A stretch of DNA of 64,000 bases from assembly GCF_000023865.1 (NCBI RefSeq), contig NC_013159.1:3808001-3872000 (forward strand), written 5' to 3'. The stretch comes from Saccharomonospora viridis DSM 43017. GTDB lineage: Bacteria > Actinomycetota > Actinomycetes > Mycobacteriales > Pseudonocardiaceae. Within the stretch, counting starts at the first letter, position 1; each line of letters begins with the position of its first letter. The notes below the pieces were generated by a model. The model saw only the letters and a list, made by a program, of their open reading frames with translations. It was not told the origin of the DNA and did not search any database. Below, in pieces: positions 13,468-32,348 of this stretch. A program made the translations under genes and the position numbers.

Positions 13468-13665
13468 TGGCAGGTCTTCGGACTCGCGGGCGGACCGGCT
13501 CACGCCGGGTTTCCCTACCGGCCGTCGCTTCCCAGGCCGAAAGGCCCAGTGCGGGTGTCGCCGGTCGAGACGACCGGCCACGGCGTTCGTTCCCACTCAC
13601 CGCTGCGGGGCAGTCCCGGATTCCCACCGGGTTCCCTCTTGCGACGCCCCGCCCGGAGACGGGCG
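13468..13665 (-). ncRNA. Cobalamin (adenosylcobalamin) riboswitch upstream of the metE remnant
   Basis: On the minus strand the conserved cobalamin riboswitch landmarks occur in order: GAGGGAACCCGGTGGGAATC, then GGGACTGCCCCGCAGCGG, the CGCACTGGGCCTTTCGGCC region, and GAGTCCGAAGACCTGCC at the 3' end. A stable GCGCACACC-GCC-GGTGTGCGC hairpin follows at 13442-13462 and may belong to the expression platform. In actinobacteria this class commonly represses metE when vitamin B12 is available. Here it lies about 150 bases before the metE remnant, in the right orientation. The limits are approximate. Confidence 0.9.
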
Positions 13666-13683
13666 AACCACCGGCGGCGACTC

Positions 13684-13711
13684 AGGATAGTGGCGCTGTC
13701 CGGCAGGACAA
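13684..13711 (-). promoter_or_regulatory. metE: Probable sigma-A-type promoter of the metE leader
   Basis: Reading leftward, TTGTCC (13706-13711) and TATCCT (13684-13689) are separated by 16 bases, close to a vegetative promoter. The riboswitch starts about 20-25 bases downstream. The promoter lies only 47 bases from the end of the UvrD-type helicase gene, so transcription through the defence operon may also enter the riboswitch. Confidence 0.6.
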
Positions 13712-13757: not shown

Positions 13758-15971
13758 TCACGGCAGTGCACGGCCACCTCGGAGCTCGCCCTCATCAATC
13801 ACCGTACCGGCCAGCAGCTCGGAACGTTCCCCGGCCCACGAGATGTACAGGTACTCACGAGCGCGAGAACCCGCCACGTAGACCAATCCTCGCTCCCTGG
13901 CCCATGCGACCTCACGTTCCGGCTCCTTAAGCTCCCGAACGCCCCGTGGAGGGAGCTCACGCTGCGAGACACCCACAATCGCGACAGCACGGTATTCGAG
14001 ACCTTTAGCACGGTGCATCGTCATTACCCGGACGACCTCACCGAGAGCGTTCTCGTCCGTCCCTGCACCTACTTCAGCCGCGGGCACTCCTCCGGTGGAC
14101 AAGGTATCCGCCAGATCAGCAACCCTTCGGTTCGACCGCGTTACGACGGCCATCTGCGACCAAGTCACCCCGTCCCGACGCCAGGACTGGAGCTTGTCGA
14201 TCAGCGCCGAATGCTCCTGCCTCGAGCTGTCGAAACCGCGGGCCTCCGGGACAGGGCCTCGGAACGCCGAACGTGCCCCCGCCAGAGATTCGGTATCGCC
14301 TTCGAGGTCATCCACAGCGTGTCCGTAGGCCACCTTTAGCGACCAATCGAGGATCTCTCGGGAAGTCCGATAGTTCACGGTGAGCCGCCGAGACCGGCCT
14401 CTCGTTTCGATACCGTATCGCGACAGCACAATCGGCTTGCCGTAAATCCGCTGATGCGCATCACCCACGATGAACAGATCATCACTGTCGTGAGGCACCA
14501 ATGCCCGAATCAACCTCCAGTGGGCAGGGTGCAGATCTTGTGCTTCATCCACGACGACATAGCGGTATTTGGGGAGGGCACCGCGGCGAATACCACTGTC
14601 GAAGACAGGCGCCTCGTGCGGGTTCAGTTGCGCGGCAATGGTCGCCGCCCTCGCAGCAGCCCGTGTGAAAGTGATCAGGTTCTGCGCATTGAGGAGCTGG
14701 GTGAACCGTTCGAATACCGCCCACAGGTCCGCTCGCTGAAGCCGAGAGATGCGCCTTCCCCTACCACTACGGGACACGGTGAGGTATTCGGCTCTTTCCT
14801 CAATACCTTGCGCGAGAACTACTTCGTTCCACTCGCTCTGTAAGAAAGAGATGTCCCACTCTTCGGCAGCCGCCGCACGAGCTGTCTCCCATGCTTGCAG
14901 CACACCGGGATCATCGTCTTTCCGCAGCGTCAGCCGGGCTCCGTCCCCGATCCGAAGGACCCGCTGCGCCAGCGAGTCGATGTTGACGACATCCACCCGT
15001 CGTCGCATCAATTCCGGCCCCGCCAGTTCAGTGAGCTGGGACTCGATGTTCTGCGCCAGGTTCCGAGTGAAGGTCGTGAACAACACCTTCGCGTCGCTCG
15101 CCTCCTCGTCAAGGCGCTGGGCAAGATGGCGAGCCCGATGGATGGCGGTCACGGTCTTGCCCGTGCCCGCTCCCCCGGTCACGCGATACGGCCCCTTCCA
15201 GCCGTTGTGGTAGGCGAGCCTGCGCTGCAACGGGTGCAACCAAATGCGCCAAGCCTTGAGATCCGACTCGAGCGCCGCTCGCAGTTCCTCGATACTGCCG
15301 TCCGTGAAGACGAGCCTGGACTGCGGACGGTCGAGCGCACCCAGCAGGTCACCGGTGTCGATGTTCGATTCGACCTCGGCGATGAGGTCGGCCCACACTT
15401 CGTCCACCCCACGACCGGCGGCAAGGTCCAAGACCGCATTGCCCTGCACGCCCGGCAACTCCTCAGCCACCGTAAGAAGCTGGTCCTCGTCAGTGATGGT
15501 CACCAAACGCTCGGCGATGTCGGTGTCGATACCGAATCGCCGAAGGTCACGAGCTCGGATGCCGCTGAGGACGGGAGTGCGCCGCGGCTGGGTGCTCGAC
15601 ACCGCGCTCGCCTGAGTGATCGCCTTGTTCAGCGCCGCGGCATCCACCACGTCGAGCGCGCCGGTCACTTCGTTCACCCCGAAGCGCAGCTTGGCCGCGT
15701 AAGTGTAGGCATCATCGTGGGGTTTCACCGCCACGAGCACGTATCCACTGGCCCGAGGAAGTTCGATGAGAACCGCGCGCCAAAAGTCGTTCACCCGTGC
15801 CGTCTTGATTCGCGGATCGCGGACGCCTTCGGGAGTCTTGAGGTCGAGACCAGTGAGGTCGGGGCGTTCCTGAAGCTTGACGACGAAGTCGAGGACCTTG
15901 TTCTTTATCGATCCGTCCAAACTGGAGTAGCTCTTGCTGAACAGACCCGACACCACCACACGTGTACTCAT
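13758..15971 (-). CDS. UvrD/Rep-type helicase with RelE/ParE-like N-terminal domain
   Basis: This 737-residue protein starts with about 95 residues like the RelE/ParE fold (LFSKSYSSLDGSIKNKV, KTARVNDFWRAVLIEL, DDAYTYAAK). Superfamily I helicase motifs follow: Walker A GGAGTGKTVTAIHRARHLA near 265, VVVDEAQDLHPAHW near 473, GDAHQRIYG, LTVNYRTSREI, and VYVAGSRAREYLY as motif VI. It probably unwinds or translocates on DNA; the toxin-like head may bind nucleic acid rather than act as a toxin, since no antitoxin gene is present. The ATG at 15971 shares its A with the stop of the upstream giant helicase gene (TGATG), so the two are translationally coupled. It is the last gene of the island's leftward operon. 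Confidence 0.88.
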   Translation of the reverse strand: MSTRVVVSGLFSKSYSSLDGSIKNKVLDFVVKLQERPDLTGLDLKTPEGVRDPRIKTARVNDFWRAVLIELPRASGYVLVAVKPHDDAYTYAAKLRFGVNEVTGALDVVDAAALNKAITQASAVSSTQPRRTPVLSGIRARDLRRFGIDTDIAERLVTITDEDQLLTVAEELPGVQGNAVLDLAAGRGVDEVWADLIAEVESNIDTGDLLGALDRPQSRLVFTDGSIEELRAALESDLKAWRIWLHPLQRRLAYHNGWKGPYRVTGGAGTGKTVTAIHRARHLAQRLDEEASDAKVLFTTFTRNLAQNIESQLTELAGPELMRRRVDVVNIDSLAQRVLRIGDGARLTLRKDDDPGVLQAWETARAAAAEEWDISFLQSEWNEVVLAQGIEERAEYLTVSRSGRGRRISRLQRADLWAVFERFTQLLNAQNLITFTRAAARAATIAAQLNPHEAPVFDSGIRRGALPKYRYVVVDEAQDLHPAHWRLIRALVPHDSDDLFIVGDAHQRIYGKPIVLSRYGIETRGRSRRLTVNYRTSREILDWSLKVAYGHAVDDLEGDTESLAGARSAFRGPVPEARGFDSSRQEHSALIDKLQSWRRDGVTWSQMAVVTRSNRRVADLADTLSTGGVPAAEVGAGTDENALGEVVRVMTMHRAKGLEYRAVAIVGVSQRELPPRGVRELKEPEREVAWARERGLVYVAGSRAREYLYISWAGERSELLAGTVIDEGELRGGRALP

Positions 15972-18900
15972 CAGACCTGCTTTCCGAACGCTGCCGCGAT
16001 CTTGTTCACAAGTTCCTCCTCGTCGTCGCCTTCCTCGAACAACCAGGCCTGCCACCCGTTACGGCGTAGCCATTGGTCCCTGTTGTCACAGACGTCGATG
16101 ACTGCTGCGAACTTCCGATCGGGCCAGCAGTACTCCACCGGCCACAAATCTCCCTTGGGATCACCGACCTCACCGCCGGGCTCGGGCTCCGGTATGTCGA
16201 GTTCCGCCAACCGCTTTCCGATTCGAGCGAGGCGTTCATGAGTGAATTCGATGACGATTTCCCACCGGGCAGGAACGACATCCACTGTCGCTTCTCTCTC
16301 CACAGTGGACGGCCGGGCCAGGGGCAGGAACCTGCCCGCAAAGACGTCAAGTGAACTCCGGGTCCAACACTCGGCCATCCGCATCGGCATGGCAGATCCA
16401 TACGTGGGAAGTGGGAGGAACTGGAGCACGTTCGACCAGCTGAGCCAGTCTCGCCACTGCTGTTCGTGGGATCGGCCGCCCACTTCACTGGGCCGGTCGT
16501 CCAACACGGTCACGGCCCCGATGGTGTCGGTCCCCGCTCCGTGCGAGCTACCGACAATACCGATCGGAAGGCCCGACATCCCGACACAAGACGCCACTAC
16601 GACCGCACCACCACGCCCGTCGGGACGCTCGCCCCGAGCCCAAGCCAGCAGTGTGGAAGGCAGTTCCTCCGGAACCACTTGCGTCGGCGGATGCCCACGG
16701 TGGTCGTTCGAACTCATGAGGGCGATACAGGTCTGCACCGCCGTCTGGCCCCACACCGCCTCGCCGGGATCGCGAAGATACTCGAGCAACGCTCGCATCG
16801 GGTTCCCCCAGAGCAGCGAGGCACGCCTGTCACCGACAGCGGCCCGTGCGGCATTGGCGGCCTTGCTGTCGACCAAAGTAGGCAACATGCTGTCGTAGCC
16901 GTCGAGCATCCGTGCGAAGTCTTCGACATCCTGGAAAGTCAAAGACCACACCCGATATCCCGCGTCTCGCAGCGCCGTACGCTTGACGGCGTCGTCCGCG
17001 GTGCGGTCGTTTTCCACCGAGGCGTGATAAGCCCGGCCGTCGAGATAGACCGCAACAGGTGCGTCCTGAGCATCCTGCCGCGTGAAGAGAAAGTCGGGTT
17101 CTGTGATGACCTTGCCGGCGGTCACGCGCACCAGAGGACGCACGGTCCACCGGCGTGGCTCCTGGTTCGGGCTGAGCAGATGGATGTCGAGTTCTTCACC
17201 CCGCTGCCCGGTCGAACTCGTCCAGGACTGTCCTTCTCCCCGGCTCACCGCGCTCTTGAGCACCTCCCGGAACCGGAGTTCCAGCTCAGAGAGCTGGAGG
17301 GAGGAGATGTCGATGTCGGCAACGGTAGGAATGCCTTCCACCGACCAGTTGTCGAGGAGTTCGGCCAGTAGCTCCATCGCCACCCGGCGGTTGGCGTGCT
17401 CCACTTCTCCCGGTTCGGCGACTCTGAGCAAGCAGCGGTGGCAGGCGGCACGCTCTTCGAACTGGCACTGGCAGGAGCTGAGCACCTCGTAGGCCTGTTG
17501 CAGGATGCGACGCATTCGGTTGGGGTCGCCGAAGCGATCGAGGTAGCCGGTGCCGCCGGGCACCGTGTCATGCAACACCAAGAACTGTCTGACCCGGCGA
17601 TGCTCGTCGGGCATACGCGCCGTGACGATGTCGAGGTGCTGAGGTGCTCCGCCGAAATCCTGGTGCAGCCCCAAAAGGAGGGCGGTCTTCAGGGAGACGA
17701 GACGCAGGTTGACCTGGAAGGTGGACACCGGCAGCAGCAACCGCACGGCCTGAGTGGTGATCTCGTGGGAAAGCAGTAGGTCAACCCAGCGTGGCGCGGT
17801 TCCCCGCCGTGTCGAGCACCACCCGCGATGCCGCACCTTGTCCTCAGCGCTCTGGCGGACAACTCCGCAGTACACACAACTCGGGAAGCGTGGGGCCGAG
17901 GTATGAGTTCCCGCCACGGAGATATCGGGGCCGGGCCGGTCGGCACGCCCGAGGTTGACCGTGCGGATGGTCGCCTGCCGAATGTATTCGGCACCGAAGG
18001 CTTGCCCCCTGAGCCGCCAGGCACCTTGGATCTGGTCGTAATCCACATCCACGCCGGTGACCGTGATGAATCGGGTGCGGGTCCGGTCCTCGGTCTCGTC
18101 TTCGATCAGGGCCTCGTCACGACGGTGAACCGCGGAGGCCTTTCGTAATTCGAGCACCTTGTGAACAGCGCCCGCATCGGCAACACCGGTGCTGCGGCAC
18201 CGCGGGCACGCGGGGGGAGCCGGATCGACGGTCTCGGTTCCCCATCCGCAGTCCGGGCACAACCGCATGTGCCGCCAATGAGGCTGTCCGGAGGGCCCGA
18301 GCTCCAAAGCATCGATCTCCACTCGGTATCCCTGGGCATAGAAGACCGCGCCGGGGGCAAATTCCGTGAGAGCAGTACGGCTGCCGCGCCCGTAGCTGTG
18401 TTCGCTGGTGTGGAATTTCTTCTCGCCCTCGTCGTCGGTGGTCCACCACAGCGACACGTCGAGTTCGGTGTGCTCGTCGAGCAAGTTGTAGCTCGGCAGG
18501 AGGGACAACTCACCGAGCCCGGTCAACGCGTTGCGGTTCCACGTATCGCGCAACATGTGGGTGAGTGCCCTGTACTCACCGATCCAGCGTCGACGGTCCT
18601 CGACCTGGGTGTCGTCGAGATGCTTCTGGGTCTCGAGACTATCGATCGCCGTGGCGAGCTCACCCTGCCGGTATTCCAGTTCCTTTCTCTGGTCCGCCCA
18701 TTGGAACACCACACGGGCGAGCTTGTCGCGCAGCCCTTTGGCGGCGAAGGACCGCACCGCTCGGCGGACCTCCTCGTCGATGGCGTCGCCGTAGAGGGAG
18801 AGGAACTGCTCGGCCAGCACGTGGGCGTTCTTGGTCACCGTGTCGACGAACTGCCGCAGCCAACTTCCCTCGGCCAGCCCGTTGTCGAGCAAGGCACCGA

Positions 18901-21900
18901 GCAGGCGCGGCATCTCACGGTCGAGCCGAATGTCACCGGAAGCGACCCGGTCGAAGCAATACGCCAGGTATTGCCGACACAACAGCTCGGTGGCCGACAG
19001 GTAGGCCGCCGGTGGAATGACCTCGCCGTCGATGAGGTGCTTCGGCTCCGACAGGTAGTACAGCTCTCGTGGACTGCTCGGTACCGTCGCGAGCACCAGT
19101 GCGTTGCCGGTGGACCTGCCCGCCCGGCCGACCCGTTGGAGGTAGTTAGCCGGAGTCGGTGGTAGGGAGGCCAGCCCGACAGTCGACAGGTCACCGATGT
19201 CGATACCCAGTTCCAACGTCGGCGTGCACGTCAGCACGTTCGGGTCTATCGGTGAGGAACCGTTGGAGAAGCGGCGTTCGACTTCGAGCCGCGTATCGTC
19301 GTCCAGAAGCGCCGTGTGTTCGTGACTCACGAGGTGTCGCAGGCGCCCGGAGCGGTAAAGCCTGCGATAGAAGTTGTCTTCCCGTACTCGATGCGGCTCC
19401 AGGTGTCCGGTGCAGCGCATTCTGGGGCACGGCGCTGACAGCCACCGGTCGAACCGCTTCGGCGCAACGGGCTGGATGTGGTGGCATTTCGGGCACCTCA
19501 GGTGGGCATGCTCCAGCTCGCTGTTGTTCAACGGGATCAGCTCGATCCGGGCCGGATCGAGTCCGAACACTGCGGCATCCGTTTGGGACGTGCGGCGCAG
19601 CAGCGGTGGAGTCTCGCCCTCGGCCAGCAATCGGACCACGGGCTCGAGAAGAGCGCGAGCCTCGGCCCGGCCGACTTCCAAACACCGTTCCGTCCAGTCC
19701 ACCAGCCACGACTCGCCGCGGGGACGAAGACTGTCGAAGTCGCCACTGGTCGACGTGCTGTAGAAGACGGGTGCGGGCCGCCCGCGGGGGAACTTCTGCA
19801 TCCCCGCGGGACTTCCACCCCAGATCGGCCATCGATTGCCGTCCCGCTGCACATACGCGTCGAGCCACTGGTGCGCGATCCCGCCCCGCTTTCGCAGCCG
19901 GTCGAGCAATCCCAGCAGCCAGACCTCGTACGCTTCCCGGTCGGGCAGGCTCATACCGCGTTCGGGCAGGTTCTCGTGGGCGTCGCGGGCCAAGGTTGCG
20001 TACCGACCCAGGTCCATGTCGTAGTCGACGGCGAGGGCACCGGTGAGTTCCAGTGTCCGACCGAGTCGGGACCGTAGACCGATTTCGAGGTGCGCTTGGA
20101 AGGTCAGTCGAGTTCCGAGCAACCGCCGTCTGCGACCGCCCCTGTCCCGGTCGAGCCACTCGCCCTCGAAGCCGAGCCTGCGCGTGAAGTCCGGAGGGGC
20201 GATGGCGTAGAGGTCCTCGGTGGGGCTTGCGGCCAGGGCCGTGGTCACGTCCTGCAGGCTGCGTGGTCGGTCTCCGACCGCACGCAACAACGCCGAACGT
20301 AGGTTGAATTGGAAGGCCCTGCCTTCGATGAACGCCGCCCGGTGGGCGGCATCCTGCACCGAGTCGGTGAAGACCAGGGTCTTCTTCTCCCCATGGCTGA
20401 TGAGGTTGGAGCCGAAAAGCTGGGTGAGGGCCACGCTGACCAAAGTCGCCACCGACGAGCCGAGGAATCGGACGGCGTCGTCGGCACCGCAAGACGGACA
20501 CCGTTGCTCGGTGGCAGCCTCCTCATCGGGGGTCACGAGCACGGACAGTCCCGGCTCGCCGTCACGGGAGTATGCGAGTGTCCGGGGATCGATGCGTCGG
20601 GCATCGGGTTCATCGTCACGGGCGAGCAAGAGCGTGCGCAGCTTCCGGCGATCGGTCACACTCGTTCGCCAGACTTTCTCCGGGGAGCCTTCCAGCTCTT
20701 CGCCGAGTTCGGTGGCCACCGTCTGCCATCCCGATCGACCACACACGCGACAGTAGGCGGCAGGCAGGTAGCGCACGTCGTGGTCTGTGGGGCCGTCATG
20801 CCACCAACCGAACTGCGGTTCGGATTTGACGGCGCGCAGCATTCGCGTGAGTTCGCGGATCCAAAGCTGCACTTCGACGTTCACGAGCGGCCGGGTCCGC
20901 CCTCGACCACCGCCGATCCTGGCGGCGGACAGCAGCGCAAGGAAGCGCAGGAGTGCGTTCTCGACCCCTTTCGGGTCCCGTTCCCTGGCAACCCCCCACT
21001 GCAACACACCGGAGTTGGTGACCGCATCCACGGCCTGGGGCAGCGTCAGGGGCTCGTCCGCGAGTGCCTGCACCACGGCCCGGGTGAGGAAGCTGCGGCT
21101 GAGGCGCCTCCCGAGCGCGAGCCGGTCGGGGATGGCTCCTCCGAGAAAGGCATGTGCAAGCTCCTGCCAAGAATCGGAGCGAGTCGCGTCGGGAGGATCA
21201 AACTGATTGATCGACGTTACGTCGGGGATGGTCAGGCTGAAGTCGACATCCGGCACCACATCGGCCGCTTCCAGCCGGTTTTCGGTGATGACGGCGTCTG
21301 ACGGGAACGACGTACCGAAGATGGTCTCGGCGAAGTTGCGCAACTCTTCCGACCGGGTGGCACCGCCGAGAGTGGCCGAGGTGGCCACGGGGGTGATCCG
21401 GCCAAGCGGGCGACCGGGTTCGGCGACTTTCAGTGTTGCGCCGAGGCGACGCAACAGCATGGCGACGTCGGTGCCCTGAGCGCCGTCGTAGGTGTGGAAC
21501 TCGTCGAGGACTAGGTATTGCAGGCTCGCAGCCGACTGCTCCCACAGCGGCGCATCCGCCGGGCGCAGCAGCAACAGGTCGAGCATCTTGTAGTTGGTCA
21601 GCAGAATGTCCGGAGGGTCCTCCCGCAGCACCCTTCGGCTGTCCACGAGATGCTCACGCGACGGCTGGGTGTGTTTGCCCTCGCCGCCGATGTACACGCC
21701 TGCCGTGACGCTCTTGAGCCGAGGATCGTCGTGCAGCAGCTCCGCGATGCGGCGGGCTTGGTCGGTGACGAGCGCGTTCATCGGGTACAGCAAGAGAGCC
21801 TTGATGCCCTTCTCACCACGAGCCCGTGCGCGTACGGCGTGGTCGAGTACCGGGTAGAGGAACGACTCGGTCTTACCCGAGCCCGTGCCCGTGGTGACGA

Positions 21901-22192: not shown

Positions 22193-22618
22193 CAACGGCT
22201 TCTCCCCCAGTAGGACCACATGATGACTCTGAGTAGTATTTCGTATCCAATCCGGGTTCGTTAACAGCCGTTACCATTTCGCTGCCACAACTCGGGTAAA
22301 TCAGCGAACCCGAGCGTTCTCCTCACCCTTGCCGGAGCAACGGGAAATCCAGGGGCTACCGAGCGCGGCGTGCCGGCCGGCTCTGTTCGCTCCCCGCCCT
22401 GCGGCAACCGCTTTCGGCCCGGCGTCATCACCCACGAGTGCCGCCTGGGATAGCTGATGGTGACCGAGCCGGGAGCCTCGGATACTGTCGGCACACAGCC
22501 GGAGCGACCGAGGCTCCACAGCGCACGCGGTCAGGAGACTCCGTCAGCGGCTTCTACGACCTCGCACCGGCCGCACCGGTCCGTCCAGAGGACTCGGACG
22601 GGCGGACGCGCACGTAGG
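22193..22618. other. 426-base gap inside the defence operon
   Basis: The other leftward junctions of the island are tight or overlapping, yet about 400 bases separate the methyltransferase stop from the giant helicase. Leftward frames of 77 and 72 codons exist (22261-22494 and 22301-22519), but neither resembles a known protein. The last 80 bases before the helicase are A/T-richer than the surroundings, as expected of a separate promoter, but I found no convincing -35/-10 pair. Confidence 0.5.
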
Positions 22619-25600
22619 TCACTCGGCGCCTTCCTTACTGGCAAGACGGCGGGTGAACTCGGCGTAGGCGGCGCGCATTTCCTCTTCGCGGTCCACCGGC
22701 GTGAACGGGGGTTGGTAGCGGTCAAGGAGGTCGCCGCAGTCCTCCTCGTTGAGGTAGGCCTGGAGCAGCTTGAAGTCCTCGGGCCGCTGTTTGACGCCGT
22801 GTGCGTGGTGGTCCTTGGCGATCTTGCGGCCGCGGCTGTCGAAGTACATGTTGTACTCGTACTTGCGCAGCACGGCGAACTGCCCGCGATACATGAGGCA
22901 GAGCTGGTCGGCGGTGAGCCCGAGCATGATGGCCACCAGCGCGTCGATCTCCACCAACGCCGCCCGGCGCTCGAACTCCGACCGCAGCGAGGTCTCCATC
23001 GTCCACTCGCGCTTGGTGACGCCGAGCGTCGGCCAGTCGGCGAACGGCTCGGTCCACGAGTCCTCGGCGAAGGCCGGTTCGTACAACTCCTCCCACAGCG
23101 GCGCGTAGTCGCGGGTGAGGCAGTTCAGGCGCAGCGTGCGGAGTAGGAGGTAGGGAGCGGCGGGGTGGTCGAGCGGCGCGGGGAAGCGGTCGACCATCTC
23201 CTTGTTGACCTTGCTGGCCCCGCTGACCTTGACGAGATAGTCGAACGGGATCGAGGACCAGAGGCCACTAATCAGGGCTGTGTCATGGTTGGATCCTCCC
23301 GCCAACGTATGGACTGCGTCGACGTGGGCAGGACCAGGCGGCACAAGTGCTGACGACAAGGCTCTCTCCAGTCCCGACTGCGTCATCCGACGCCAGGCGA
23401 GGCGGTAGTAGTCCGTGTACGGGCGGCCGTTCCACTGGGTGAGGCCTGCTTCGTAGCGGTCGCGGTCGCAGGCGCGCTGGTAGTTGGTGCGCGGGATCAC
23501 CCGCTCCGGCAACTCCTCAAGATCCCAGTCGGAGTAGTCGAGGTTGCTCTTACAGTTCTCGTTCGGTTCCTTGGCAAATGGTGTCGCAACAGAGAACTGC
23601 GGCCCCTGCAGGATTACTTCACTCCACGAAACCGGATGAGCTGTATCCCATATCCCAATTCCATCTTTTTTTAGTTTGTCCTCATCCCAACCTCGAGCCC
23701 ACTCGTAATCCAGATCGACCATCCGAACTCTCTGATCGGAAATAGCAGCCAGAGCTTCGAGCTGCTCACTCGTGCCCGGTCGCAACAGACGAGCTTGCGC
23801 AGCGGGCGTCCCTGGCGCGTCGAAGAGCGCGGCCCACTGAGCAAGAGTCCGTTCGGTGATCTCTACTACCCGAGAGGCATGAGGCCGTAAGTCCCAGCCA
23901 CCAGCCGGATACTGGATACCCGGTGCATCACCCGAGCCATCATGCTCCAAGGAACCTTCAAGCGTTGAGGGTGTCAAAAGATTCGATATTTGCAGGAATC
24001 GAATAGCGCTGGCAGCACCATAAATATGAACACCGTAAATCGTGTGGTGGTCAACATCGGCGAAGAGTTGACCTTCGTTGATGAACTGCCAGTGGCGCCT
24101 GAGTCGTTTGTACGTTTCAGCGCGCAGCTTGCCCGCCTTGGGATCTGTGAAGTGGCTCTCCGGGTGCAACAGACCGACGATCCCTGTTGTTCGCATCGAA
24201 CGCCAGGAGCGCTCCATGAAGCTCGTGTAAAGGTTGGTTTGAATGCCTGACAGAACCGGATGCTCGACTGATGAACCCAGGTGCTCGTTCAACCCCGACC
24301 ACGATGCGAGTTCTCCGAGGTACTGCCGCTTTGCCACCGGATCGGCCAGCACCTCCGCACGACGCACCCGGAATGTTGCGTCAGGAATCTTGTTCTGCAA
24401 GACGAAGAACGGCTCAAACTCAGCGAGCGTCTCGTTGTCGAACCACTTCGGCCGAACCCACGGCGGGTTCCCCACTTGCAGGTCGAAGCCGCCTCGGCTG
24501 AACACCTGCGCGAAGTCCAGCTCCCAGTGGAAGAACGCTTCTTGCTGCGTGATCTCCCGCACCACGCCGAGCCACGGGTGTTCGGCATGCAACAAGGTGA
24601 CTTCCCGCATGCCGTGGTAGGTCCTCTCCAGCTCGTCGAGGTCGGCCAGTTCGTGGAAGCTGTCCACGCTTTCCACCAGCTCCATATACCCCTCGGGCAT
24701 CGCCTTGCCCGCCACTCCGAGCAGGCCCTCCAACGTGGCGATCCACTCGGTGAGGTCGGGCGGCTCGATGTCGGTGGTCACCGGCCAGAAGAACAGCGCA
24801 CACCACGCGTTCATCGCCAACCGCAGCCGCTGATACGGCCCCTCGGGGTCCTGGAGTTTGTTCTCCACTTCCTCCCGCGGCACGCCCGTGGCTTCCTGCG
24901 GCAGCTCCGCGCCCCACACGTCGATGCTGCGGGCCACCTCGCGTTCGCTGATCTCCATACGTCGCCGGGTCAGCTCCCACAGCCGCTCCACCCGTCGCGC
25001 GAGCCGCCGCAGCCGCTCGACCTCCTGCTTGCTCGGCTTGCGGGTGACGGCCTTGTGCCACTCCTTGAGCCGCGCGACCTTCTCCGGCGCGAGTTCCTTG
25101 GCCTGCTTGGCGTCCTTCACCGCGCCCCACCCGGCCGCGGGCAGCAGGAAGTGGTGGATTTCGCCGTCCCCGATCGGCCCTTCGGACAGTGGGCGGTCGG
25201 TCGGCACGGTCTTGAGCCAGCTCTGCTTCGCCCACCCCAGCGCCGTGAAGTCGTAGGTCGCGCGCCGGGCCCCGATCAGCGAGTTTCCCCGCTTCAGGTG
25301 CAGACCGAACCACGGCGCCTTCAACCCGCGGTGCATCACGTTCAACCACAGCGATACCTCCGCCAGTTCGCGGGCGGTGTCGTTCAGGTCCACGCCGTAG
25401 CAGCGGTGCAAGGCCAGGTAGGCCTTCACCTTCTGCAGCTCGTCACGGTATGACTCCGGGTCGATCGTGGTGTCCAGCTCGCGTTGCCGCCGCTTGAGGT
25501 ACTCGTCGGCGAGCTGGTTGATCGTCTCGTTGAGGAACGCGCCGCTGCCCATCGCGGGCTCGCAGATGCGGTACTCCAGGATCTCGGCCGCGGGCGTGTC

Positions 25601-27259
25601 ATCACTGATCAGCTCGGCCAGCGAATGCTTCACCACCGTGCGAGTCAGCACCTCGGGCGTGTAGTACGAGGCGCTGCGCTGCCGGTCACGCCCAGACAGG
25701 CGGTAGACGAACGTGCCCGCCGGGTGCACGACGAAGCTCTTCTCGCCGGTCAATGGGTCTTCCCGACGCACCACGTGCTTCTCGTCGTAGTCACCCAGCT
25801 TCTCGCGCGGCACCAGCCACGTGCCTTTGGTGGGATCACCGTCCTTGGCAAGCTCCACCAACTCCCGATCGGCGATGAACCCGCTGTAGGCCATCAGTCC
25901 CTCGTACACCGCACCGAGCTGGTTGATGCCCAACTGCGCATACGACACGTAGCCGGCCTGGCCGCTCTTGCGTTTCGATGGCTTCGCCAACAGCAGCAAC
26001 GCCAGCACCCGTTGCAAGACCGCGTTGCTCAGGTCCACGTTGTCGATGTGGTAAGCGTGCTGGGCATCGAACAGGTCGGCCCGCAGCGGTTCGAACACCA
26101 GGCCGTCGCTGTTGGACTCACCCGCGTGGTGGCCGGTGTTGACCAGCTTGAACAGCAGGCGTAACGAGTCGTGCAGGTGGCGGCCGTCGCGAGAAGGACC
26201 GGTGAGCGGGCGCAGAATCAGCTCTCGCAACCGATCGAGGCTGTAGCCGGCGTCGTAGTCGGGGTCCCCTACCGGGAGAATACCCAGCTCCGGCCGGGCC
26301 TCGGCATAGAGCAGGAACAGAATGCGGTAGAGGAACCGCAGCGACTGCGTGGTGAGCTCGCGCGGCAACTCGGGGATGCCCTCCACCGGCTCGCCCTTGG
26401 CTCGCCGTTTCCGGATCACCTCGTTGGCGATCAGCTCCACTGATTGCCGCAGCCCCTCCCGCAGGTCCTCGCTCACGCCGACGGCGTGCTTCACGGAGTC
26501 GTCGGTGAACTCACCGAGCAAGCTGTGCCCGTCCTCGGACGGCACGAGCACATCCGCCGACGCCAGTCCGGCAATCCATGCGAGTTCACCGGTGGCTTTG
26601 TCGTCACCACGCGACAACGCGGTGTCGAGGTCGAACGCCAGGTACCGACCCTCGGCCCAACGCTCCACATCCGACAGCAGCAGCCACCCACCCGCGATCA
26701 CCAGTACAAAGCGGGGAGCATGCTCGGTGAGGAAAAGCTGCTGAACAGCTTTGCTTACCGACTCGACCGCCTCTGTTTTCGCGGCCTCAGTGCTGCCGCT
26801 ACGTACTCGGATGGGATCGAGCAGAGCTCCCTGCCGGTCGGTATCTCCTTGGACAGCGCCGAACAAGTCGTCGACGTCGTCCACCGGCACCGCTTGAAGG
26901 ACGTGCAGGGCCTCCCCCGACAACGACTGGGCACGCGCCAGCAACGGCACCCACACCGGGTTCTCCGAACGCCGAGTCTCCAACTCGGTGGGGGCCGCTT
27001 CGAAACCCAGTGCCTTGAGCACGAGGATGTGTAGTTCGGTGACGGCTTCGGAGTATCCGTCCTGGTGCGGCCGCGGAAGTAAAGCCTTGGCGGCCAAGAA
27101 CTTCCCCGCCACCGTCGACAATGCCTTCAGCGGGCTGTGTTTGCCCTTGGTCGCACGTTCCCGCCAGTCCTTCGACAGCTGCCGGAGCTTGCCCGGAAAC
27201 GCCTCGGAGAGCCAGTGCGGAGACAGGAAATCGCCAACATTGCGGATCGAGTCGTACAT
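22619..27259 (-). CDS. Eco57I-class adenine-specific DNA methyltransferase (DrmMI/PglX-like)
   Basis: This 1,546-residue protein should methylate adenine in DNA. RQRSASYYTPEVLTR near 545 introduces the catalytic domain; EPAMGSGAFLNE near 567 is the AdoMet-binding motif I, HRCYGVDLND follows, and VGNPPWVRPKWF near 932 is the catalytic NPPW motif of N6-adenine enzymes. About 540 N-terminal residues precede the core, and a long target-recognition region follows it. This is the layout of DISARM class 1 DrmMI and, more distantly, of BREX PglX. No nuclease motif was recognised, so cleavage would have to come from a partner. The gene starts 28 bases after the SNF2 gene stop. Codons and G+C differ in the segment at 23560-24260. 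Confidence 0.9.
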   Translation of the reverse strand: MYDSIRNVGDFLSPHWLSEAFPGKLRQLSKDWRERATKGKHSPLKALSTVAGKFLAAKALLPRPHQDGYSEAVTELHILVLKALGFEAAPTELETRRSENPVWVPLLARAQSLSGEALHVLQAVPVDDVDDLFGAVQGDTDRQGALLDPIRVRSGSTEAAKTEAVESVSKAVQQLFLTEHAPRFVLVIAGGWLLLSDVERWAEGRYLAFDLDTALSRGDDKATGELAWIAGLASADVLVPSEDGHSLLGEFTDDSVKHAVGVSEDLREGLRQSVELIANEVIRKRRAKGEPVEGIPELPRELTTQSLRFLYRILFLLYAEARPELGILPVGDPDYDAGYSLDRLRELILRPLTGPSRDGRHLHDSLRLLFKLVNTGHHAGESNSDGLVFEPLRADLFDAQHAYHIDNVDLSNAVLQRVLALLLLAKPSKRKSGQAGYVSYAQLGINQLGAVYEGLMAYSGFIADRELVELAKDGDPTKGTWLVPREKLGDYDEKHVVRREDPLTGEKSFVVHPAGTFVYRLSGRDRQRSASYYTPEVLTRTVVKHSLAELISDDTPAAEILEYRICEPAMGSGAFLNETINQLADEYLKRRQRELDTTIDPESYRDELQKVKAYLALHRCYGVDLNDTARELAEVSLWLNVMHRGLKAPWFGLHLKRGNSLIGARRATYDFTALGWAKQSWLKTVPTDRPLSEGPIGDGEIHHFLLPAAGWGAVKDAKQAKELAPEKVARLKEWHKAVTRKPSKQEVERLRRLARRVERLWELTRRRMEISEREVARSIDVWGAELPQEATGVPREEVENKLQDPEGPYQRLRLAMNAWCALFFWPVTTDIEPPDLTEWIATLEGLLGVAGKAMPEGYMELVESVDSFHELADLDELERTYHGMREVTLLHAEHPWLGVVREITQQEAFFHWELDFAQVFSRGGFDLQVGNPPWVRPKWFDNETLAEFEPFFVLQNKIPDATFRVRRAEVLADPVAKRQYLGELASWSGLNEHLGSSVEHPVLSGIQTNLYTSFMERSWRSMRTTGIVGLLHPESHFTDPKAGKLRAETYKRLRRHWQFINEGQLFADVDHHTIYGVHIYGAASAIRFLQISNLLTPSTLEGSLEHDGSGDAPGIQYPAGGWDLRPHASRVVEITERTLAQWAALFDAPGTPAAQARLLRPGTSEQLEALAAISDQRVRMVDLDYEWARGWDEDKLKKDGIGIWDTAHPVSWSEVILQGPQFSVATPFAKEPNENCKSNLDYSDWDLEELPERVIPRTNYQRACDRDRYEAGLTQWNGRPYTDYYRLAWRRMTQSGLERALSSALVPPGPAHVDAVHTLAGGSNHDTALISGLWSSIPFDYLVKVSGASKVNKEMVDRFPAPLDHPAAPYLLLRTLRLNCLTRDYAPLWEELYEPAFAEDSWTEPFADWPTLGVTKREWTMETSLRSEFERRAALVEIDALVAIMLGLTADQLCLMYRGQFAVLRKYEYNMYFDSRGRKIAKDHHAHGVKQRPEDFKLLQAYLNEEDCGDLLDRYQPPFTPVDREEEMRAAYAEFTRRLASKEGAE

Positions 27260-27286
27260 GCCCTTGATGCCTTTCGTGGGTTCGCG

Positions 27287-30169
27287 TCACACCGTCCTGC
27301 GATCGGGGACGATCAGCCCCACCACGCGCACGAACGGCTCTCCCGCGGCAGCCAATGAATCGATGAGCTCGGAAATCTCGTCACGAGTACTGGCGACAGC
27401 GTCCTTGCTTCTGGCGGAACCGCCCGCCTGTTCCACCACGAACAGCGCCCGTTGTTCCCACCGCGACAACCGCTTGCGATGTTCGTCGAGGCGTTCCAGC
27501 AGATCTCCCTCGACCTCATCGCGATGGCGACGCAAGTCCTCCGTCGCAGCCTCCACCGCGGCGGGGACGAAAGACTGCAGTCGCTCAATCCAGCCGGCCA
27601 CCCCACCGGGGTTGCGAGCGTGTTCCTTCAAACCGGCCCGTTCCAGAGCTTCCCGCAGATCCCCGACCTTGGGTTCATCCGGCAACCCAGTGATCGCGCC
27701 CCAACGAGTCAGCACCGGTTGCCCGAGGGAATTCGCCCACGTCGCCTGGGTCAAAAACACCGGCTCCGGCACCGGGGCGGCCATCACCGGGGCCTGGTTA
27801 CGCCCGAACCTGGCGAGTGCTCTGCTCGTCGCCCACTCCAACACGGGGTGGCTCGGCGCCAAATAGCTGACGTCCGGCCACAGAGTCTTTCCTTCCACAC
27901 GGGCCTTGGCCAACCTCTGCTCGGAGAACCGGCGCTGGGCCGACACCCGGATCCGGCTCGACACCTCCCTGTCACGCAGGTAGCTGTCCGGCAGGTCCTT
28001 CAGCCGTTCGGCCAGGTCCGCAGGCGTGTTGAACGCCAGCAGGTCCGTGTCCTCGTCGCGATGGATGTCCAGCGCCCCCGGGTTATCCGTGATCTCGTGC
28101 AGCGCCTCGGTGAGGAAGTTGTCGTCGTCGTCGAACAGGGTGCTGCGAGGCGCTGTCGGCACCGGCGGATCATCGGCGTGCTCACCACCCGTGGCGATCA
28201 GGGCGGCGAACGGGTTCACCTCCTCCGGATCGTTGATCTCGGTAGCGAGGTCCTTGCCCTGCCGGAGAAGCTCCATGATCCGGTCCTCTTCAAGGTCCGC
28301 ATCACGGACGTCGAGCAGCGCCCCGGCATCCCCCAGCGCCTGATTGGCGGCGTGTTCCTTCTCCAGCAGTTTGGTCACCACCCGCAGATCACTGACCGTG
28401 TCCGTGTCGGACGAGGTCAAGGCGAGCGCCGTGATACGCGGCTCGTGTTCCTGCAGGTAGCGGTCGATACGACCGTTGCGCTGCTGGATCCGAATGAAGC
28501 TCCACGGCAGGTCGTAGTGCACCAACTGGTGGCACTGACGGTGCAGGTTCAGACCCTCGGAAGCCATGTCGCTGGCCAACAGAATCCGCAGCGGGCTGGC
28601 CTCCAGCGCGAAGTCCTCCACCACCTGCTGCACGTCTCTGTCGTTGAGCTGTGCGTGGAGTAGTTGGACGGCCTTGTCGGGCAGCCGGAGTTTGCGGCGC
28701 AGCTCATCACGCAACCACTCCAGAGTCTGGATACGCTCGGAGAACACCACGACTCTCGTGTCGCTCCCCTTGCCCACCCCGATGTCGGCGAGGTGCTTCA
28801 GCAGGGCATCGAATTTCGCAGCGCCCCGTCGCTCCGCTACCTCGGCGAGCCCGTCGAGCCGGCGCAGCGCCTCCACTTCGGCTGAGCCATCGTCCTGGGT
28901 GCTCAGGGTCTTCAACCTGCGGCGGATGCTCTCCCGCAGCGCCCGAGGCGAAGAGAGGAAGGCCTTGAACAGAGTCCAGGGAAACAGTGTCTTGCCCCGG
29001 CCCGACACCGGAGCCTGCCCGGAAGCCGGGCGGAGCCAGGCGTAGGTGAGTTCCTCCAGCACGGCTTGTTCCTCGGGCGTCGGCTCCACCGGGATGATCT
29101 CCGGATCACGCCGAGGCGCCCAACGGTGCCCGACCTCGAGTTTCACGTCGGGGGAATTGCGGTGCCTGCGTACATAGAGGTGCTCGATGTCCGAGGCCTG
29201 GTAGTCCTTCGGATCGGCGATCGCCGCAGGGTCCAGCAGGCCAATCAGCTCGGCGAACGACTCCCGCTTGCCGTTGTGCGGAGTAGCGCTGGCCAGGATG
29301 AGGGCATCGGTCTGGCGAGCCAGCAGCCGGGCCAACTCGTTGTTCTGGGTGCCCTTGTTGATGAGGTTGTGGCATTCGTCGATCACCACGACGTCCCAGC
29401 GATGGCCCGACAGATGGTGTCGATACCGAGCCGGGTTCTTCAACGTGTCGATCGAGACGATCACGCGTTTGTAGTAGCTGAAAGGATTGCGGGTGGCAGG
29501 CAGCGTCTGACGTACCTTTTGGATGCCGTCGGAGTCGAGCCGCACCAGCGGAATCGAGTATCGCGTCCACATCTCGCGCTGAAACTGTTCCAGCACCGCA
29601 CGAGGTGTTACGACGAGAATGCGATCCCCTCGTCCCCGCTTGATGAGTTCGGTGAGCAGTATGCCGATCTCCAGCGTCTTGCCCAGGCCCACAGCATCGC
29701 CGATCAAGATACGCGGGCGCAGGTTCGACAATGCCTGATACGCAGGACGAAGCTGGTACTCCATCGAGTCGGCTAAGCCGTGGTGACCCGCCACGATACG
29801 GGTGTCGGTGATCGGGGTCGGGCTCTGCCGCAACAGCGACTCCAGCCATAGCCGCGAACTTCGAAAGCCCGGACTCTCGTCCGCAATCAACTTGGTATGC
29901 CGAGGATCCAGCACTTCGATGGCATCCAGCGAGCTGTAGAAGACCGCGTCCTGGTCACGCACCAGCTCTGATGCCCCCGTGGCCTCCACACGCAACTCCC
30001 CGCGTGCAGTGCGGCGAACCGAGCGCACCAACCATTCCTCATCACGGACGATGATTTGGGAACCGGCAGCTATATCGACCTCGTTCTTCTCCGAATCCCG
30101 GAAGAGTTCCGCTACGTGCGCGGAGCCAGACGCGGAGACCGTGCGTGAAACGTCGTGCTGTGAGCTCAC
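27287..30169 (-). CDS. SNF2-family helicase/ATPase (DrmD-like)
   Basis: This 960-residue protein is a Swi2/Snf2-type double-stranded DNA translocase. Motif I is ILIGDAVGLGKTLEIG near residue 155-170, motif II VVVIDECHNL near 255, motif III LILASATPHNG, motif V LLASDMASEGLNLHRQCH near 535, and motif VI IQQRNGRIDRYLQ near 560. About 110 N-terminal and 300 C-terminal residues flank the motor. Placed directly before a large adenine methyltransferase, it matches the drmD-drmMI pair of class 1 DISARM. The start is the GTG at 30169, giving MSSQHDVSRT. It is first in the leftward operon; the promoter must lie within the 69-base gap shared with the EVE gene. Confidence 0.9.
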   Translation of the reverse strand: MSSQHDVSRTVSASGSAHVAELFRDSEKNEVDIAAGSQIIVRDEEWLVRSVRRTARGELRVEATGASELVRDQDAVFYSSLDAIEVLDPRHTKLIADESPGFRSSRLWLESLLRQSPTPITDTRIVAGHHGLADSMEYQLRPAYQALSNLRPRILIGDAVGLGKTLEIGILLTELIKRGRGDRILVVTPRAVLEQFQREMWTRYSIPLVRLDSDGIQKVRQTLPATRNPFSYYKRVIVSIDTLKNPARYRHHLSGHRWDVVVIDECHNLINKGTQNNELARLLARQTDALILASATPHNGKRESFAELIGLLDPAAIADPKDYQASDIEHLYVRRHRNSPDVKLEVGHRWAPRRDPEIIPVEPTPEEQAVLEELTYAWLRPASGQAPVSGRGKTLFPWTLFKAFLSSPRALRESIRRRLKTLSTQDDGSAEVEALRRLDGLAEVAERRGAAKFDALLKHLADIGVGKGSDTRVVVFSERIQTLEWLRDELRRKLRLPDKAVQLLHAQLNDRDVQQVVEDFALEASPLRILLASDMASEGLNLHRQCHQLVHYDLPWSFIRIQQRNGRIDRYLQEHEPRITALALTSSDTDTVSDLRVVTKLLEKEHAANQALGDAGALLDVRDADLEEDRIMELLRQGKDLATEINDPEEVNPFAALIATGGEHADDPPVPTAPRSTLFDDDDNFLTEALHEITDNPGALDIHRDEDTDLLAFNTPADLAERLKDLPDSYLRDREVSSRIRVSAQRRFSEQRLAKARVEGKTLWPDVSYLAPSHPVLEWATSRALARFGRNQAPVMAAPVPEPVFLTQATWANSLGQPVLTRWGAITGLPDEPKVGDLREALERAGLKEHARNPGGVAGWIERLQSFVPAAVEAATEDLRRHRDEVEGDLLERLDEHRKRLSRWEQRALFVVEQAGGSARSKDAVASTRDEISELIDSLAAAGEPFVRVVGLIVPDRRTV

Positions 30170-30238
30170 GCTGATGTGTCGTCCCGTGCCCCGGAAGTGC
30201 TACAAATCCCATGTCCGGCCGCGTCTTATGGTTCACCG
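30170..30238. promoter_or_regulatory. Short divergent promoter region of the island
   Basis: Only 69 bases separate the SNF2 gene (leftward) from the EVE-domain gene (rightward), so both transcription units must start here or inside each other's 5' ends. This arrangement allows a common control. I could not assign individual boxes. Confidence 0.4.
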
Positions 30239-30787
30239 GTGACCGATTACCTACTCGTCATCGGCGACCGCGAGGCCCTCGGATGGGTGCTCACCGAACA
30301 ACGGATGGCGTTTCCCAACCTGCAACGGTCGGAGGTGCGTGCGCTTTCGCCGGGAGACACGCTTTTCCTCTACACGACCAGAGGATGTTTCAAGAACCCC
30401 ACGCGGGACCGGGGACGCATCATCGCCACCGGGACGGCGACATCTGCGGTGACACCTCTGGAAGAACCCGTGCGGATCGGGGGACGAACCTTTCCCGTCG
30501 GGTGTGATGTTGCGTTTTCCGCAGCGGCCCCCTGGGGACACGGGGTCGAGCTGCGAACTCTCGTCGAGAGACTCGACGCCTTCGCTGGAGCGGGCTCGGC
30601 GTGGAGTGTTCAGCTACGACGTCCGCTCGTCACGCTCAGCCGTAGCGACGCCACGCTGCTGCGGCGTCGACTCGACGCTGTTCCGCCACAACCCCTCGAG
30701 GATGTCCTGGAACCATATGCACGGTGGTGGAACTTTGGTATAGGGGAACCGCATGAAGCAGCGCACGATCGGCAACGGCCGCTATGA
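30239..30787 (+). CDS. EVE-domain-like protein (putative modified-base reader)
   Basis: This 182-residue protein fits the EVE/PUA-like superfamily, whose members bind modified bases such as 5-methylcytosine derivatives in DNA or modified RNA. The N-terminus YLLVIGDREALGWVL, the middle LSPGDTLFLYTTRGCFKNP and IIATGTATSAVTPLEEPV, and FPVGCDVAF follow the EVE strand-turn pattern, with a C-terminal helical extension. The GTG at 30239 begins MTDYLLVIGDRE; an in-frame upstream start at 30176 would add 21 residues unlike the family. Its last 35 bases overlap the kinase gene, so the two are coupled. Beside a DNA methyltransferase operon, it is plausibly a sensor of DNA modification state (inference). 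Confidence 0.7.
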   Translation: MTDYLLVIGDREALGWVLTEQRMAFPNLQRSEVRALSPGDTLFLYTTRGCFKNPTRDRGRIIATGTATSAVTPLEEPVRIGGRTFPVGCDVAFSAAAPWGHGVELRTLVERLDAFAGAGSAWSVQLRRPLVTLSRSDATLLRRRLDAVPPQPLEDVLEPYARWWNFGIGEPHEAAHDRQRPL

Positions 30788-32348
30788 ACTCCGACCGCTC
30801 GCCCAGGGTGGAATGGGCGAGGTCTGGGTCGGCCGTGACACAAGACTCGACCGCGAAGTCGCGGTGAAGTTCGTGCGGTTTGCCGACAATGTGTCTAAAG
30901 ACGAGATCGTGCGCCGGTTCGTGCGGGAATCCCGCATCACCGCACGCCTCCGCCATCCCGGTGTTCCGGTGATCTTCGACGTCGGCACCGAGAACGGTAA
31001 ACCCTATCTGGTGATGGAACGCGTACACGGGATCAGCATCAGAGATCTCCTGGCCAAGCAGGACCGGCTATCCATCGGTTGGGCCGCCACCATCGCAGCA
31101 CAGACCTGTGCGGTACTCGCCGCGGCACACCGCGAGTCGCTTGTCCACCGTGACCTGAAACCGGGCAATCTCATGCTCGAACCCGAGGGGACCGTCAAGG
31201 TGCTCGACTTCGGGCTCGCTGTCGCGCTTGACCTTGCCGAGGTTTCGCAGATCACCCGGACCGGACAAAGCGTCGGCACCCCCGCTTATATGGCGCCCGA
31301 ACAGGTCCTCGCGGCCATGAGCGAACCCCGCACGGATCTCTACGCCCTCGGATGCACTTTCTACGAGATGCTCACCGGACGACCGGTGTTCACAGGTCAA
31401 ACGTCTTACGCCGTCATGAACAAGCAGGTGGACGAGCGTCCAGAACCCGTGCGATCGCTGCGTCCAGACGTTCCTTCTGAACTGGATTCCTTGGTCGAGG
31501 AGCTGTTGGAGAAGAAGCCGGAGGAGCGACCTGGATCAGCTCAGGAGGTGTACGAGCGGTTATTGCCGTTCGCCGTCGAAACAGACCCGATCCCGGACGT
31601 ATCCAGCCCGTTGGGCACACGGAATCCGTTGCGGATGTATGCCGCTGTGGTCAGTCAGTCCTTCGTCGAATCCGTCGGTGCTACCAGCCTCCCTACCGAG
31701 TCTCGGGTGAACAGCCTTCCCACGTCACAAGAGGAAAAGACTGCTCTTGCGACACCCGATTCGGCGCTATCTCGAATGCGTGAACCGACCACTCGCGACG
31801 ACATCGAGGAAGCCCGCGCGGATGCCGGCGAACTCGCCACACAAGCTCGCTACCAGGAGGCAGCCGAAGTACTCGCAGCTGTGGCGAAGGGTGCGGCCGA
31901 AACCTTCGGTGCAACCGACGATGACGTGTTGACGGTGCGACTTGAACTCGCGAACGTACTGTTCGAAGGCGGCGACTATCGTGCCGCCGCTCCCGTGTAC
32001 GAGAAACTGATCGAGGACTTCATCAGACGAAACGGCCACGACAATGAACTGGCGTTTCGATGCCGTGCCCAGTACGCGGAATGCCAAGCCAGGTTGGGAA
32101 AGACCAGTGAAGCGGTGAGCGTGGCCGCCAAGCTGCTCGACGACTTCAGCCGTATGTACGAAAAAGCGGACCCCCGTACCCTTAACCTGCGCCAGCAGAT
32201 CGGCCTATGGCAGCTGGCAGCCGGGCAACGGGACGAAGCCGGCTCGACACTCCAACAGCTGTTGGAAGACCTGCTTCTTCACTACGGTGAACAGCATCCC
32301 ACCGTGTCCTACATACGAAATCTCCTCGCCGGCCTTGAGAAGAGCTGA
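30753..32348 (+). CDS. Serine/threonine protein kinase with TPR-like C-terminus
   Basis: This 531-residue soluble kinase has a glycine loop LAQGGMGEVWVG at 16-27, ATP lysine K39 in VAVKF, catalytic VHRDLKPGN at 131-139, DFGLAV at 152-157 and APE as MAPEQ. The kinase domain ends near residue 270. Residues about 345-531 consist of alpha-helical pairs such as ATQARYQEAAEVLAAVAK and GGDYRAAAPVYEKLI, typical of tetratricopeptide repeats that bind proteins. There is no transmembrane segment or PASTA domain, unlike PknB. The ATG at 30753 overlaps the EVE gene by 35 bases. Kinases accompany several phage-defence systems (for example PglW), so it may regulate the divergent operon, but an unrelated role cannot be excluded. 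Confidence 0.88.
   Translation: MKQRTIGNGRYELRPLAQGGMGEVWVGRDTRLDREVAVKFVRFADNVSKDEIVRRFVRESRITARLRHPGVPVIFDVGTENGKPYLVMERVHGISIRDLLAKQDRLSIGWAATIAAQTCAVLAAAHRESLVHRDLKPGNLMLEPEGTVKVLDFGLAVALDLAEVSQITRTGQSVGTPAYMAPEQVLAAMSEPRTDLYALGCTFYEMLTGRPVFTGQTSYAVMNKQVDERPEPVRSLRPDVPSELDSLVEELLEKKPEERPGSAQEVYERLLPFAVETDPIPDVSSPLGTRNPLRMYAAVVSQSFVESVGATSLPTESRVNSLPTSQEEKTALATPDSALSRMREPTTRDDIEEARADAGELATQARYQEAAEVLAAVAKGAAETFGATDDDVLTVRLELANVLFEGGDYRAAAPVYEKLIEDFIRRNGHDNELAFRCRAQYAECQARLGKTSEAVSVAAKLLDDFSRMYEKADPRTLNLRQQIGLWQLAAGQRDEAGSTLQQLLEDLLLHYGEQHPTVSYIRNLLAGLEKS

Follow-up and report, generated by a model that had tools for sequence, protein, structure and literature searches.

Introduction

ARMADA type II is a four-gene system that was reported in September 2025 and tested in Escherichia coli (Bell et al. 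2025, PMC12458937). As described there, a BrxHII-like helicase, a PglX-like methylase, a YprA-like helicase and a GajB-like helicase are encoded in this order; the cluster of E. coli NCTC 12900, carried on a plasmid, protects E. coli from 13 of 80 phages, all four genes are required, and the cells stay intact. Among the eight residues mutated in that work, two substitutions, ArmD D454N and ArmB G605A, caused only a partial loss of activity; E. coli ATCC 8739 is among the strains used, and EVE domains are mentioned as predicted readers of modified bases (PMC12458937). Here we analysed a 64,000-nucleotide stretch of the genome of Saccharomonospora viridis DSM 43017 (4.31 Mb, a single contig), called the window throughout, in which a leftward operon of four genes that matches ARMADA II lies beside a divergent pair of genes for a small EVE-like protein and a Ser/Thr protein kinase. 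The core of this locus is already known; what is new is the kinase association, as we found a protein kinase beside ARMADA II in several actinobacterial lineages and, in one of them, as a constant fifth gene standing first in the operon. How BREX, DISARM and ARMADA spare their own host, and when they are activated, is an open question. Ser/Thr kinases have precedents in methylation-based defence, namely PglW of BREX type 2 (Pgl) and MAD6 of MADS, and EVE domains read modified bases.

Results

The leftward operon matches ARMADA type II

The leftward operon matches ARMADA II in gene order, co-direction and domain make-up. ArmA matched NCBIfam DISARM_DrmD at 312.8 bits, under the cut-off of 610, and PADLOC DrmD at 297.9 bits; ArmB matched the PADLOC family PDLC03611 (REase_MTase_IIG) across its full length at 1059.6 bits, and DrmMI as well; ArmC matched PADLOC DruE3 at 315 bits and the Pfam families DEAD, Helicase_C and MZB (the last at 44.0 bits); and ArmD matched Pfam UvrD-helicase and UvrD_C, and PADLOC GajB at 104.5 bits. 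A first-pass annotation of this DNA had placed four leftward and two rightward genes here, and the open reading frames with their Pfam and PADLOC matches confirm all six. Its description of a DISARM-class-1-like motor and methyltransferase joined to a DruE-like single-chain DUF1998 helicase is likewise borne out by the PADLOC names DrmD, REase_MTase_IIG/DrmMI and DruE, as is the presence of a UvrD/GajB-type helicase in the place that DrmC has in DISARM. The profile search that it had proposed gave a divided answer: PADLOC named every member of the operon and split the set into DrmD, REase_MTase_IIG/DrmMI, DruE and GajB. The name ARMADA was absent among the PADLOC 2.0.0 matches listed for the window proteins, and none of the six reached the cut-off of an NCBIfam model. 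The suggestion of an undescribed system or subtype did not hold, because ARMADA type II, as described in PMC12458937, consists of these four genes in this order.

We compared the window with one Streptomyces locus and with the four proteins translated from E. coli ATCC 8739 (NZ_CP022959.1), where the same gene arrangement lies beside tRNA-Phe and where the residue numbers given for NCTC 12900 in PMC12458937 land on the expected motifs. Identity between the window and E. coli ATCC 8739 is 35.8% for ArmA, 37.0% for ArmB, 31.3% for ArmC and 33.0% for ArmD. All eight residues mutated in E. coli are kept in the window: K164 and D264 of ArmA align with E. coli K136 and D236, G571 and the NPPW asparagine N931 of ArmB with G605 and N971, K116 and D239 of ArmC with K110 and D234, and K300 and D503 of ArmD with K266 and D454. 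Because order, domains and catalytic residues match those of ARMADA II, we assign the four-gene core, as judged from its sequence, to this known system. Our genome scans found the four-gene neighbourhood far outside the window strain, and because of this recurrence it is not a chance arrangement. Gene content, gene order, conserved catalytic residues, family identity and recurrence are thus established.

In an alignment of 23 ArmC rows, the E, PD, DG and H of the nuclease region are invariant. Pfam MTES_1575 was matched in 10 of the 23 rows (best E-value 6.3e-5) and Vsr in 2; the window row alone gave MTES_1575 an E-value of 0.011, which is below the cut-off, and the region had no significant sequence match in the PDB. 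At the level of the family, the C-terminal Vsr-type nuclease of ARMADA II ArmC is recognisable. The N-terminus of the window ArmD aligns with the N-terminal domain of E. coli ArmD; in this family Pfam gave weak matches to ParE_toxin in 2 of 24 members and to ParE_like in 2 of 24 (best E-value about 0.1), and none for the window row.

Protein kinases beside ARMADA type II in actinobacteria

The best 80 of 550 confirmed stretches from one genome scan were taken as named loci, and 76 of the 80 show ArmA. A co-directional kinase gene stands just before armA in 15 of these 76, and a divergent kinase gene lies within about 6 kb of armA in seven, all from Nocardia. An upstream kinase is undetectable in L049, L057, L063, L092 and L100, where less than 1.5 kb precedes armA or ArmA was not seen, and a weak kinase match in L121 (50 bits) was left uncounted. 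We then used an ArmB tree of 93 rows, comprising the 80 named loci, five plasmids (two from Streptomyces and one each from Tsukamurella, E. coli and Microvirga), seven further genomes and the window; L035, a duplicate of the L054 locus, was left out of the trees. The 22 rows with a co-directional kinase form one side of one branch, with a support of 100 in the Shimodaira-Hasegawa-like approximate likelihood ratio test (SH-aLRT); every row of this clade has the kinase, and none was seen outside it in the tree. Loci with the kinase gene first are found, for example, on plasmids of S. cellulosae and S. jietaisiensis. In an out-of-sample check, eight of 396 genomes sampled across the phylum matched ARMADA, giving six new loci besides G000 and G050. 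Three of these (L224, L225 and L226) fell within the kinase clade and carry both the kinase and its tail, which brings the count to 25 of 25 rows with support 100; L223 and L227 fell outside it and showed no kinase in the DNA examined, and the same holds for L228, which is identical to L101 and was not counted as new.

The kinase appears to have been inherited together with the core. Its distances track those of ArmA (r = 0.92) and ArmB (r = 0.91), the correlation between ArmA and ArmB being 0.94, with 0 of 5000 permutations in each case. At the C-terminus of all 22 kinases there is a short peptide of basic and aromatic residues. Sixteen have the form [LIV]RxxY and six the form R[RQ]xx[YF]xG, each form belonging to one of two subclades, and the kinase tree divides in the same way, 16/6. 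HRD and DFG are invariant in the 17 co-directional kinases aligned. With the kinase model A3, the six best matches in 61 genomes were exactly the six ARMADA-adjacent kinases, five of which were in the training set or come from a locus that is represented there, that of G034 being independent; among the A3 matches listed, these six alone reach model position 384 of 386, within the tail. The ARMADA of this clade very probably has the kinase as a genuine subunit. In the Nocardia rows, the divergent kinase was found in seven of nine, the contigs of the other two being cut too short to tell, and other genes lie between kinase and armA in five of the seven loci. At L060:1955-5297 and in its Nocardia relatives, an N6-methyltransferase gene and an unknown gene stand between armA and the divergent kinase (Pfam was run on L060), and they are perhaps a second system.

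The EVE and kinase genes had been flagged as notable at the outset, and this was well placed, as kinases recur beside ARMADA II and the word "kinase" does not occur in the main text of PMC12458937, the supplements of which may list one. A literature search listed no publication that links a kinase with ARMADA or with hsdR operons, which is not proof of absence. CapK, as described in PMC13373217, is a GHKL kinase and thus of another kind.

The window kinase and its relatives

The window kinase, correctly predicted as a Ser/Thr kinase on the strand opposite to the operon, matched Pfam Pkinase at 163.1 bits and TPR_12 at 48.3 bits, and its HRDLKPxN and DFG motifs are intact in the translation. 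PADLOC matched it best to PD-T4-6 (309.8 bits) and also to mad6 (227 bits), and NCBIfam to PglW (67.4 bits); the mad6 and PglW matches run through the kinase domain. PD-T4-6 models account for 22 of the 25 PADLOC families among the matches listed, mainly via the kinase domain, and the Streptomyces kinase, which is of a different sort, matches the same models. We did not adopt the label PD-T4-6 for the window kinase, since the matches rest mainly on the kinase domain and the genetic context differs.

Relatives of the window kinase were sought in 61 genomes, and 11 loci (L208-L218) were examined; matches outside these 11 include G006:C49 at full length and shorter ones in G033, G023 (a second copy), G026, G029, G018 and G020. 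Four of the 11 (L208-L211) hold Saccharomonospora copies with 71-76% identity to the window kinase. In the other seven (L212-L218, two of them from Saccharomonospora genomes), the kinase gene immediately follows a co-directional hsdR-type gene, with gaps of 3-135 bp, as at L212:3016-10834. HsdR was recognised by Pfam in L212, L217 and L218 and in the other four by BLAST to the L212 protein (52-53% over the full length); HsdM and HsdS were found by Pfam in L212 only, and L215 has an AIPR gene before hsdR. Because all seven of the further loci examined have this arrangement, the kinase family with C-terminal tetratricopeptide repeats (TPRs) travels with type I-like restriction genes. To our knowledge, there is no published name for this hsdR-kinase pairing.

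Six Saccharomonospora genomes carry the window-type kinase, with at least 71% identity over the aligned part, and ARMADA or a remnant of it lies near the kinase in four of them, directly adjacent in the window and in G009. EVE is again followed by the kinase in G009, at the same site as in the window, in G006, where the pair is divergent from armA as in the window and some 9 kb away from it, and in G007. G011 holds rearranged pieces; some 4 kb separate its kinase from an ArmB remnant, and the two are divergent. On G006:C75 (L210, L222 and L032), armB ends near 201,800 and armC starts at 227,176, about 25 kb apart, so that this is a strongly opened-up ARMADA locus.

The EVE-like protein

The earlier call of an EVE-like protein is upheld by its family and not by the single sequence: the 203-residue protein alone gave no Pfam match and no PDB match, whereas the family profile A4, built from eight members including the window protein, matches the UPF0310/EVE structures 1wmm (4.2e-8) and 2p5d (0.0012). 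When eight relatives or family members were searched singly with Pfam, EVE was matched in four, once above the cut-off and three times below it, and unmatched in the window protein, L114, L049 and L141. By its family profile, the 203-residue protein counts as an EVE-domain relative. An NCBIfam match to tail_join (19.3 bits against a cut-off of 25) was rejected.

This EVE family is rare, with five strong matches, the window's included, and one weak match in 396 actinobacterial genomes. The relative in G155 (L139/L146) lies in a locus with SNF2, methyltransferase-like, helicase, MZB and phospholipase D (PLD) genes, which we would call DISARM-like; that in G233 (L141) directly adjoins mcrC of McrBC; that in G185 sits on a 5-kb contig without context; and that in G439 shares its contig with an ARMADA II about 90 kb off. 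Two of the 80 named ArmB loci, from two other clades, contain an EVE relative, after armB in L049 and after armD in L114.

Other genes in ARMADA type II loci

Eleven loci (L022, L033, L046, L047, L059, L061, L080, L099, L104, L107 and L111) have DrmA-like and/or DrmB-like genes upstream of armA on the same strand, as seen in BLAST clusters, and in 8 of the 11 these lie within about 600 bp of the armA open reading frame. L046, the only one run through PADLOC, gave 792 bits for DrmA and 227 bits for DrmB, and the annotation of the 13 kb upstream in L022, which is incomplete, lists neither drmD nor drmMI as a separate gene. Unlike the window, these 11 loci look like true DISARM/ARMADA composites, in which a single motor and a single methyltransferase may serve both systems. 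Additional genes, which vary between loci, are frequent at the armB-armC junction; a GmrSD-type (DUF262) cluster stands there in L027, L045, L059, L082 and L102 (Pfam was run on L059), and the close relative G009 is among these five.

Layout of the locus

The features of the window are collected in Table 1. The gap between armB and armC is 400 bp. The stretch homologous to metE lies left of armD in the window and right of the kinase in G009 and G004; because it changes side in this way, the island edge has been rearranged. At the right end, window:60001-64000 shows a sharp shift in guanine-cytosine (GC) skew (-0.25 to -0.28), a shift in adenine-thymine skew, and a lower GC content.

Table 1. 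Features of the ARMADA type II locus, in window coordinates
Feature	Position	Strand	Remarks
ArmA-like SNF2/RapA/BrxHII-type ATPase	27287..30169	-	960 residues from the first GTG
ArmB-like adenine methyltransferase	22619..27259	-	1546 residues; GNPPW motif, NPPW Asn is residue 931
ArmC-like YprA/DruE-type helicase with MZB (DUF1998)	15971..22219	-	2082 residues; about 2073 from the first Met
Vsr/MTES_1575-like nuclease region within ArmC	16781..17470	-	placed by the 23-row alignment
ArmD-like UvrD/GajB-type helicase	13758..16055	-	765 residues from the first GTG
ArmD N-terminal domain, counterpart of the predicted RelE-like RNase domain of E. coli ArmD	15555..15959	-	placed by alignment
Small EVE-domain-like protein	30176..30787	+	203 residues; GTG at 30239 may be the true start
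Ser/Thr protein kinase with C-terminal TPRs	30753..32348	+	531 residues; overlaps the EVE open reading frame
metE remnant, left island edge	12676..13695	-	partial Pfam Meth_synt_1

Discussion

We consider it quite probable that the four leftward genes form a type II ARMADA and that the EVE-kinase pair is most likely an accessory which tunes this or a similar restriction system. By analogy with the tested E. coli system, the core most likely acts by direct restriction of phage DNA through a motor, a methyltransferase, a helicase-nuclease and a second helicase: the methyltransferase and the motor would distinguish or handle the DNA, and ArmC with ArmD would directly halt phage DNA replication without killing the cell. 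The putative scheme of the first-pass annotation, in which the methyltransferase marks self and the nuclease attacks unmarked DNA, is plausible. The EVE protein may recognise a modified base, and phosphorylation by the TPR kinase may act as the switch for the complex or for its expression; both proteins are probably accessory regulators. The activity, the methylation target and the action of the two proteins on ARMADA are what we infer here. Together, EVE reader and TPR kinase are best understood as a switch that was taken over from the restriction-kinase family, and the chance that it acts on the window's own ARMADA is about even.

Several observations weigh against this overall reading of operon and pair. 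In G007, the pair is present and no ARMADA was found in an 83%-complete assembly, on a contig that begins 0.9 kb before EVE. In G004 (L208), the same site, with an MBOAT gene on the left and SDR and DUF445 genes on the right, has no ARMADA; its EVE has lost the first 44 residues and is frame-broken, and its kinase open reading frame is intact. Because four of the six genomes have ARMADA, or what remains of it, close to the kinase, the pair is linked to ARMADA yet separable. In addition, the window kinase, with its TPR tail, differs from the kinase of the co-directional clade; in L045, one of the next relatives, no kinase is seen within the 7 kb that precede armA; neither kinase arrangement was seen in 54 of the 76 loci, a few of which have little upstream DNA; and the proposed RelE kinship of the ArmD N-terminus found no significant Pfam or PDB match. 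The pair might thus be an independent small defence or regulatory module that merely shares its neighbourhood with ARMADA II, an explanation that we regard as possible and somewhat doubtful. It draws on G007 and G004 and on G006, where other DNA, roughly 9 kb of it, separates the pair from armA. However, G006 keeps the divergent orientation, the G011 kinase has its ArmB remnant nearby, the further kinase-family members adjoin hsdR wherever they were examined, divergent kinases recur beside ARMADA in all Nocardia rows with enough sequence, and two other clades have EVE relatives within their ARMADA II loci.

It is unlikely, in our judgement, that the kinase is a second-line effector which phosphorylates host targets and arrests growth when ARMADA fails. 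Stk2 and PD-T4-6 are models for such growth-stopping kinases, and the window kinase has intact active-site motifs and PD-T4-6 as its best PADLOC match. However, the PD-T4-6 models were matched mainly through the kinase domain and also by the Streptomyces kinase, E. coli ATCC 8739 has no kinase gene between ArmA and the upstream helicase, and the E. coli ARMADA acts without cell death according to PMC12458937. An undescribed hybrid of DISARM and Druantia, as first supposed, would fit the mixture of DrmD, DrmMI, DruE, GajB and type IIG names in PADLOC and the lack of any NCBIfam model at its cut-off; we now regard it as extremely improbable, and for the four-gene core it is refuted by the match to ARMADA II in order, domains and catalytic residues.

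Returning to the EVE-kinase pair as an accessory of restriction, we tentatively propose a wider picture for Actinomycetota, in which we have limited confidence. Ser/Thr kinases would work in methylation-based restriction there; the TPR family would serve type I enzymes and, by transfer, ARMADA II in the window, where a modified base bound by the paired EVE reader would trigger the switch, and perhaps in Nocardia; and, independently, one ARMADA II clade would have fixed a kinase as a fifth subunit docked by its C-terminal peptide. In that clade the kinase is inherited as strictly as the motor and the methyltransferase, so that phosphorylation becomes a directly testable control step, and the tail peptide offers a handle for finding the partner. 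For annotation, it matters that current tools split ARMADA II, as the highest score of ArmB in PADLOC 2.0.0 is for a type IIG enzyme.

Compared with known systems, the window shares with Druantia a very large YprA-type helicase with DUF1998 and differs from it in carrying motor and methyltransferase genes; none of the Druantia partners (DruA-D/DruH) was found in the six proteins by PADLOC, Pfam or NCBIfam, or in the ten flanking ones by Pfam. With DISARM class 1 it shares a DrmD-like SNF2 motor and a DrmMI-like NPPW methyltransferase, whereas its helicase is DruE-like and single-chain in place of split DrmA/DrmB, and Pfam found no DrmC-type PLD domain in the six proteins, which do not form a class 1 DISARM. 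BREX and MADS resemble the window through the kinase domain, by which its kinase matches PglW and mad6, but the window kinase has a TPR tail and the six proteins include no other component of these systems beyond shared folds. The type I restriction loci with a kinase behind hsdR (L212-L218) have the same kinase-TPR family, but its partner there is HsdR, with HsdM/HsdS or AIPR genes where seen, and not ARMADA. From the ARMADA II of E. coli NCTC 12900 and ATCC 8739 the window is set apart by an identity of only 31-37%, the divergent EVE and kinase genes and the 400-bp armB-armC gap, with no tRNA gene found within its 64 kb and no Druantia or Zorya gene found by Pfam among the ten neighbours. 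It agrees with that system in the four genes, their order and co-direction, their domains and all eight catalytic residues, and also in the extra N-terminal domain of ArmD and the Vsr-like region of ArmC.

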